Shown here piece by piece: positions 41,083 through 41,894 of a DNA stretch of 64,000 nucleotides (position 1 is its first letter; every line of letters starts with the position of its first letter). Source of the DNA: Salegentibacter salarius. GTDB taxonomy: Bacteria; Bacteroidota; Bacteroidia; Flavobacteriales; Flavobacteriaceae. Location of the stretch: contig NZ_FVZF01000001.1 of the NCBI RefSeq assembly GCF_900168265.1, forward strand, positions 124,001 through 188,000, read 5' to 3'. A program made the translations under genes and the position numbers. Below the pieces are notes generated by a model. It did not search any database and was not told the DNA's origin. It saw nothing but the letters and a program-made list of their open reading frames with translations.

Positions 41083-41267
41083 ATTTCGTTATGTAACCTT
41101 TAAATTTTAATAGAATGAAATCACATAAAGATTTAACCGTTTACAAGACAAGTATTGACCTGGTTATAGATATTTATCAACAAAGCCAGAATTTTCCGGA
41201 TTCAGAAAAATTTGGATTAACGAGTCAGATAAGAAGAGCTTCAGTTTCCATTCCATCTAATATAGCT

Positions 41268-41557
41268 TGCCCTGTGTAATAAAATTTTAATGATGTTTTT
41301 TTATACTTATGTTTTACTTAGTTTGAAAGACAAAAGAATGTATACAGGTTATACGTCTGATTTAGATTTAAGAATAATACAACATAATAAGGGGAATGTA
41401 GTATCAACTAAGGATAGAAGACCTTTAAAATTAATTTATTATGAAGCTTGTTTAAGCCAAAGTAGTGCCTTAAAAAGAGAAAAGTACTTAAAGACCACCT
41501 ACGGTAAAAGATATTTAAAGAATCGTATTAATTTTGAAGAAATAATTACACAGGGTA
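41268..41557 (+). mobile_element. 290-bp GIY-YIG insert with 13-nt terminal inverted repeats
   Basis: The left end reads TGCCCTGTGTAAT (41268-41280) and the right end ATTACACAGGGTA (41545-41557): inverted repeats with one mismatch in 13. The insert lies within the conserved SNIA-EG codons of a four-helix-bundle gene and carries one gene, a small GIY-YIG nuclease. There is no transposase. No clear target duplication is visible, although AGCT occurs on both sides of the insert. Layout recalls a homing or minimal selfish element. Confidence 0.75.
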
Positions 41558-41571
41558 AAGGGAGCTGCTAG
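41290..41571 (+). CDS. Small GIY-YIG nuclease superfamily protein carried by the insert
   Basis: 93 residues, a stand-alone GIY-YIG domain of the UvrC-nuclease/YhbQ-like type. The first strand YTYVLLS, the YTGYT strand, the Arg in DLRIIQHN, STKDRRPLKLIYYEA with the metal-binding Glu, and LKREKYLK are all in place, so the nuclease looks active. An ATG at 41293 is an equally good start. The last codons read through the right terminal repeat and stop just inside the flanking gene. It has no DNA-binding extension of the kind found in phage homing enzymes. Confidence 0.85.
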   Translation: MMFFYTYVLLSLKDKRMYTGYTSDLDLRIIQHNKGNVVSTKDRRPLKLIYYEACLSQSSALKREKYLKTTYGKRYLKNRINFEEIITQGKGSC

Positions 41572-41748
41572 GAGTAGTAAAAAGGAATTTATTAGGTTTC
41601 TTTATATCGCTTTGGGTTCCATGGCAGAAATAGAAACTCAACTTGAGATTGCATATAGATTGAAGTTTATAAAAGACACTCCAGAAGTTGTGGAGAAAAT
41701 AATATATATCAGAAGAATGATTCTGAAATTAATACAAAGTTTGAAAGA

Positions 41749-41835
41749 GTAATGAAGTAACGAAGTGATGCTGTGATGAAGTAACCAAGTAATAATTGGC
41801 TCCGTTACTCCATCACAAGATTACTCCGTTACATA
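41749..41835 (+). repeat. Octamer arrays in inverted orientation, right of the split gene
   Basis: Six forward units from 41749 (GTAATGAA, GTAACGAA, GTGATGCT, GTGATGAA, GTAACCAA, GTAATAAT), a short centre, then reverse-type units GTTACTCC, ATCACAAG, ATTACTCC, GTTACATA to 41835. GTGATGAAGTAAC (41773-41785) pairs with GTTACTCCATCAC (41804-41816) with one mismatch. The first unit holds the stop codon of the four-helix-bundle gene. Confidence 0.78.
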
Positions 41836-41894
41836 TAACAAGCAGGCGCATTGTTTTAATAAACCATTACTTGATCAAAAAATAGAATATAAAC

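Follow-up and report, generated by a model that had tools for sequence, protein, structure and literature searches.

A gene of the S23/23S-IVP family in Salegentibacter salarius is split by 290 bp of DNA that carry inverted ends and a small GIY-YIG nuclease gene, which raises the question of what kind of unit has entered it: a mobile element with ends of its own, a homing gene, an intron, or no unit at all. The locus lies in a 64,000-nucleotide stretch of contig NZ_FVZF01000001.1 (positions 124,001 to 188,000), hereafter the window, whose coordinates are used unless another locus is named. A preliminary description, drawn from the letters of this stretch, had read the insert as a minimal element of homing type with transposon-like ends and had extended the idea to stand-alone small GIY-YIG genes in general.

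The insert in the S23 gene

The coordinates and sequence of the insert were verified (Table 1), and its ends, TGCCCTGTGTAAT and ATTACACAGGGTA, do form the 13-bp inverted repeat with one mismatch that had been reported. Of 63,600 start positions scanned in the window at 290-bp spacing, no other has arms of 13 bp that pair with one mismatch or fewer. The insert codes solely for a small GIY-YIG nuclease (Pfam GIY-YIG, E 1.5e-16), also as first described, and no known transposase (DDE, HUH, or tyrosine or serine recombinase) was found between the ends. Both halves of the host gene match Pfam 23S_rRNA_IVP, the left at profile positions 1–47 and the right at 49–104, and the intact paralog matches this family too. 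Excision of the insert restores an open 115-aa frame resembling the intact copy in the window, as had been described, with 40.5% identity over 116 columns (E 3e-27), and the split point is indeed the conserved SNIA|EG motif of S23. The conserved Glu codon 3′ of the insertion is Lys in the window and in Salegentibacter lacus.

Table 1. Features of the split S23 locus and of the intact paralog, in window coordinates.
Feature	Position	Strand	Remarks
Intact S23/23S-IVP paralog, 116 aa	36728–37078	+	Motif unbroken (..PSNFSEG..)
5′ part of split S23/23S-IVP gene	41115–41267	+	51 codons, up to ..SNIA
Whole element, 290 bp	41268–41557	+	Inverted ends and GIY-YIG gene alone; missing from syntenic G010 locus
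Left terminal inverted repeat TGCCCTGTGTAAT	41268–41280	+	Outside nuclease ORF
GIY-YIG nuclease ORF	41290–41571	+	Alternative ATG at 41293
Right terminal inverted repeat ATTACACAGGGTA	41545–41557	+	Within 3′ end of nuclease reading frame
3′ part of split S23/23S-IVP gene	41558–41752	+	64 codons plus stop, KGAARSS..

The nuclease frame overruns the right arm by 14 nt, ending with TAG. The left frame of the host stops within the left arm (41279), 10 nt ahead of the nuclease ATG, which suggests that translation of the nuclease is coupled to that of the host left frame. The intact paralog has an odd position inside a likely operon, between genes that presumably encode proteins resembling sulfate adenylyltransferase subunits.

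The nuclease

Tyr18, Arg28 and Glu64 are invariant among 44 relatives and Tyr7 is at least 90% conserved; we take these four to be the catalytic residues. The predicted structure (pLDDT 92) is a bare 85-aa GIY-YIG fold with no additional domain. The structures closest to it were UPF0213 BH0048 and the branched-DNA nuclease Slx1, not a sequence-specific homing enzyme, and PDB 1zg2 came out best by sequence profile (1e-10) and first by fold. By sequence profile, the closest solved structures belong to UPF0213/YhbQ-like small GIY-YIG proteins (PDB 1zg2 and 1ywl). Those proteins are products of ordinary small genes, whereas in the group studied here the gene lies between inverted ends and has entered another gene. 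The window protein had no match in NCBIfam at E ≤ 0.01; its relative at locus L079 weakly matches the NCBIfam group I intron endonuclease model (E 0.0078, below cut-off). If the enzyme shared the taste of Slx1 for branched DNA, this would, speculatively, suit a role at hairpins or recombination intermediates.

Recurring ends across the family

A genome search returned 211 relatives, of which the best 80 were retained. These 80 are 56–89% identical over their best segments and come from Bacteroidota, many CPR lineages, Thermodesulfobacteriota, Planctomycetota and others. An inverted repeat with a score of at least 10 surrounds the ORF at 62 of 81 loci (the 80 retrieved plus the window), compared with 13 of 405 shuffled-flank controls. 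With loci from further searches the set grew to 128 distinct GIY-YIG genes, after 138 of 139 profile matches had been kept and ten duplicates removed (L001, L087, L101, L088, L099, L146, L156, L147, L150 and L153); L145 is absent from the 138, though by eye its left end resembles the family type. Family-type ends were sought with a regular expression that was written after the data had been viewed and that was used unchanged on the shuffled control. They occur at 89 of the 105 genes scoring at least 119 bits, at 2 of the 23 below 119 bits and in 11 of 625 Markov-shuffled flanks; of the 16 high-scoring genes in which the script found none, L140 at least has them by eye.

The 91 units bounded by inverted repeats measure 269–328 bp. 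Their ends share the core CCCTGTnAAAT, often within TTYA/TTG..TRAA, and many members have a coding right arm, since their ORF ends in ..SYLTG plus stop. Conserved ends around unrelated insertions had been named as one of two observations that would support an element, and CCCTGT-type ends were found in unrelated target genes; the terminal inverted repeats of this family mark the insertion boundary, as is expected of DNA transposons. The broader proposal, that stand-alone small GIY-YIG genes may be inverted-end elements, is supported for one group and not for GIY-YIG genes generally. Nine genes of a sister group (L110–L118) lack family ends, and none were seen by eye at five other GIY-YIG genes of the window's genome. 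Five loci came from IMG/VR, with family-type ends by eye in L140 alone, and plasmid and phage records held no relative of the L079 nuclease (E ≤ 1e-15 and 1e-12).

That the repeat arose by chance, or as a terminator hairpin next to a resident nuclease gene, is hardly credible. Folded as RNA, the whole insert is no stabler than shuffles (z −1.0; 19 of 100 shuffles equally stable), as such a reading allows, but the family-wide ends and the empty sites described below contradict it, and we regard it as already refuted. A terminator-like hairpin unique to this locus was likewise ruled out: the same kind of ends occurs around relatives elsewhere, and the insert folds no better than its shuffles.

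Co-variation of the arms

Of the 91 units, 88 could be anchored and 87 were counted for co-variation. The nine core arm positions are Watson–Crick pairs in 761 of 783 cells, where the number of mismatches is a lower bound because the arms were chosen for complementarity. One position is G–C in 42 of the 87 elements, T–A in 38 and C–G in five. The left arm is non-coding, yet it tracks the right arm. When left and right flanks were exchanged between loci, 70 of 240 pairs still passed the inverted-repeat threshold; since the ends share a motif, this control is silent on co-variation, which the count by arm position does show.

G·T pairs were compared with A·C mismatches as an indication of the level at which the arms act. 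Over all 17 arm positions there are 79 G·T and 82 A·C, and over the nine core positions 5 and 11, whereas the two innermost positions have 22 and 3. As G·T is not commoner than A·C overall, the evidence leans toward a DNA-level rather than an RNA-level role.

Short units without the nuclease gene

Eight distinct palindromes of 41–114 bp with family ends and no GIY-YIG ORF were found in 518,595 bases, all from loci fetched because of these elements, and none in shuffled sequence. One of the eight, a 41-bp palindrome, stands in frame within the S23 genes of L043 (797–837) and L021 (1992–2255) and adds about 15 codons, in which it resembles a Rickettsia palindromic element. At L052 (3226–3307), a gene-less unit shares its neighbours on either side with the GIY-YIG element found there, as if the gene had been lost from one unit or two landings had occurred in a duplicated target. 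The exact GTGAAAT-type version of these units is rare in Bacteroidota, since it is present in 2 of 395 genomes; a backward control gave no match among the matches listed. The window's own genome holds none of this type.

Empty sites and junctions

The preliminary description had called for an uninterrupted orthologous site in related genomes, and one was found in a congener (G010), syntenic on both sides. The empty locus reads SNIAEGAARSS and has the same two neighbour genes as the window, presumably nucleotide-sugar-dehydrogenase-like, at 79–80% nucleotide identity. In Salegentibacter lacus (L007), the insertion occupies the identical place. A second empty site bears out the same expectation for an unrelated target: the tyrosine-integrase gene of L125 reads LLGHKNV, element, KTTMIYTHV, and its ortholog in G526 (86–89% nucleotide identity) reads straight through. 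A paralog of this integrase in the L125 genome is also free of the element, and the insertion is exact save for an ambiguity in a run of A. For L129, no empty site was found among nine genomes, three of them from its genus.

Junctions were read by hand against family motifs. Some are exact, while others have lost approximately 1–5 nt or carry a 4-nt repeat (L010 and L064), and they revealed no fixed-length target duplication. The leftover between the conserved codons and CCC..GGG, also read by hand and not scripted, is of phase 1 in 17 cases, phase 2 in nine and phase 0 in three.

Target genes

Insertions lie at conserved codons of S23, GxxExxY, tyrosine-integrase, HepT-like, ParE and MazE-like genes. 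S23 is the commonest target, with 27 rows in 25 genes by eye. The right-hand S23 piece starts at Pfam profile position 47–49 in five of eight tested (L017, L057, L079, L119 and L128), as it does in the window; L025, L039 and L070 use other positions in S23. All three split GxxExxY genes tested have right pieces starting at profile position 26–28, and integrase genes are broken at several motifs. Pfam matched nine of ten host pieces in one set, the tenth being L127, whose host we take from its motif to be a HUH transposase (a label that enters no count), and all ten in a second set, with four of eight S23 pieces below the Pfam cut-off. In NCBIfam, the L016 piece scored above cut-off as GxxExxY, and L106 (epimerase), L048 (glycosyltransferase) and L024 (YchF) had fragments that matched below whole-protein cut-offs. 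No location in an rRNA gene came to light: Rfam had no match in the window at curated thresholds and found tRNAs alone at 20 other loci.

Sugar-epimerase genes are entered at Rossmann-fold codons and have a distinct arrangement, in which a duplicated 5′ fragment ending ..GGAGF is followed by the element and then by the complete gene. In L042, two elements that are 97.8% identical lie in tandem, and a repeated epimerase gene start comes after each of them, which looks like repeated invasion of a restored target.

Descent of the nuclease, choice of target and copy number

The nuclease tree (128 rows, 85 columns) has weak support. Target labels, assigned by eye from translations, were mapped for the four main targets (55 rows) and require 5 changes on it; in 200 shuffles the mean was 25 and no value fell below 19. 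Host phylum, taken for the 50 rows with inverted repeats and a named phylum (19 NCBI phyla), requires 25 changes, where shuffles average 29 and go no lower than 26. Target choice therefore follows nuclease descent closely, clade by clade and across phyla, and the signal from host phylum is slight, though not fully random.

Elements are also more alike than the sequences around them. Those of L021 and L043 are 99% identical, with S23-gene flanks at 74 and 88%; those of L137 and L138, in integrase paralogs of one genome, are 98.7% identical against flanks at 86 and 92%; and those of L048 and L051 share 95% identity, with same-side flanks that have no similarity. Copy number is low and the distribution in Bacteroidota patchy. 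A clear member (at least 130 bits) was present in 8 of 299 Flavobacteriaceae genomes, the 18 Flavobacteriaceae genomes listed had one match each, and a match at E ≤ 1e-30 was found in 16 of 395 Bacteroidota genomes, as a single copy in 14, two copies in one and five in another (G450).

The inverted ends and gene-less versions would both be expected of a non-autonomous, MITE-like unit that is moved by an unrelated transposase and carries the GIY-YIG gene as a passenger. We consider this very improbable, because the junctions have no fixed-length target duplication, copy number is very low and target choice tracks the phylogeny of the GIY-YIG gene itself. The transposon-like nature proposed at the outset therefore stands as far as the ends are concerned, but site choice, low copy number and the pattern on the tree suit homing better than random transposition. 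The nuclease belongs to a superfamily of homing enzymes, its target is conserved and is known in the empty state, and the target is inherited with the nuclease lineage while crossing hosts. We class the family with homing elements since it follows their logic; the defined ends and the gene-breaking insertion do not.

A plain stand-alone homing endonuclease gene, with inverted ends that are merely transcription or translation signals carried along by co-conversion, is unlikely. Clade-specific conserved targets and lateral spread, both observed here, are standard for homing genes, and the coding right arm of many members is also in keeping with such a gene. Against it, the left arm, which is not part of the ORF, stays complementary to the right through double changes, insertions into unrelated targets are delimited by these ends, and short units with the same ends exist without the gene.

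The locus is most probably explained by a recurrent, homing-like element without an intron or intein, bounded by inverted repeats. The family would consist of mobile elements of approximately 270–330 bp with precise inverted-repeat ends and a GIY-YIG nuclease as sole gene. The nuclease of each clade would cut the empty site at conserved codons of the gene family that it targets. The break would then be mended, probably by the host, with insertion of the unit in the sense orientation, and the ends would be recognised or needed in this process. Where the host gene is dispensable and multi-copy (S23, GxxExxY, integrase and toxin–antitoxin genes), it would simply be interrupted. At epimerase loci, the duplicated 5′ fragment may serve as left homology arm for the next round of homing, and could also drive expression of the nuclease.

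State of the split S23 genes

An alternative to simple interruption is a new protein-assisted intron, in which the inverted ends would pair in the RNA, the 290-nt piece would be removed and the host gene would stay functional. Several observations agree with it. Insertions are in the sense strand at conserved motifs, and 22 of 25 split S23 genes have no further stop in the pieces read, including L070, where one gene holds two elements. The S23 halves of the window and Salegentibacter lacus, which share the insertion, differ by a dN of 0.11 and a dS of 1.0 (dN/dS approximately 0.11). Identity at fourfold sites between the same two genomes is 0.50 in the element (n = 18), close to the 0.48 and 0.37 of neighbouring genes. 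The excess of G·T over A·C at the two innermost arm positions points the same way, as do the GIY-YIG insertions reported from CPR rRNA genes (PMC11270868), which fit no known intron.

Open halves with these dN and dS values are in tension with interruption, because a gene long dead should not show them. Two explanations offer themselves: recent, independent acquisition of the element by these two genomes, or a split gene that remains functional, which would imply removal of the element at the RNA level. The right S23 half of the window is 87% identical to the empty G010 gene and 80% identical to that of S. lacus, a weak hint of separate recent gains. Adjacent to this half, the intergenic region 41753–41894 has 94% identity to its counterpart in S. 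lacus (L007), against approximately 80% in the surrounding coding genes, a sign of local recombination.

An intron would explain insertion at conserved codons, the double element of L070 and purifying selection on both S23 halves. We nevertheless judge it decidedly unlikely. Since junction phase differs between insertions in the hand reading, no single splice rule restores all frames. There is no excess of G·T over the 17 arm positions, the window contains no Rfam family at curated thresholds, and the unit has little space beyond its ORF. The epimerase insertions retain a full gene copy. Stops occur in the S23 pieces of L079 and L102 and, between the two elements, in that of L039, and L016 is without a segment that is present in L010, L059 and L064. 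Recent lateral arrival, as at L021 and L043, could by itself account for open halves. In L039 (2260–2500), the S23 gene has approximately 40 extra codons and the in-frame stop between the two elements.

Comparison with known systems

For the homing-like element that we prefer, close counterparts are the GIY-YIG homing endonucleases of group I introns and phages, such as I-TevI and the Seg/Mob enzymes, with which it shares the catalytic domain, a conserved target, patchy lateral spread and low copy number. It differs from I-TevI-type homing in that no intron or intein and no separate DNA-binding domain were found, and in that the ends are precise inverted repeats and the host frame is broken. 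REP/RAYT, IS200/IS605 and Rickettsia palindromic elements are likewise small palindrome-ended units, and the in-frame gene-less unit of L021 and L043 is a further likeness; here, in contrast to REP/RAYT and IS200/IS605, a GIY-YIG nuclease takes the place of a HUH transposase, copy number is low and targets are codon-specific. To our knowledge, a unit of approximately 285 bp with one gene of 85–90 codons would rank among the smallest autonomous mobile elements.

IStrons, as parts of PMC4227781 portray them, also combine an intron-like with a transposon-like feature; no ribozyme and no known transposase were found in the elements described here. The authors of PMC11270868 place the GIY-YIG insertions of CPR rRNA genes outside homing in their main text, where a word search for "inverted repeat" finds nothing. 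Those insertions sit in rRNA genes and the present elements in protein genes; the two may be the same thing. Searches of open-access PMC listed no description of elements of the present kind.

Homing genes usually reside in introns, inteins or neutral gaps; the present elements depart from this pattern and unite targeting of the homing type with ends of the transposon type. Their nucleases form a natural collection of minimal enzymes with a target choice that tracks phylogeny. The elements also provide a possible motor for small palindromic repeats and explain why S23, GxxExxY and integrase genes are found broken in public genomes.

Neighbouring groups of small GIY-YIG genes

Several members of the L110–L118 group, a Flavobacteriaceae subfamily, have similar sequence nearby in the form of variants of GCTCTACTTTACTGCGAT and of a GGCCAGG-rich stretch. 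In another sister group (L013 and, from IMG/VR, L139, L141, L142 and L143), the small GIY-YIG genes adjoin tRNA-like sequences; those of L013 were included in the Rfam search, which found tRNAs alone. In L013 and L141, the copy upstream is partial and the one downstream complete, and L141 has a CTGCC/GGCAG palindrome on the left side.
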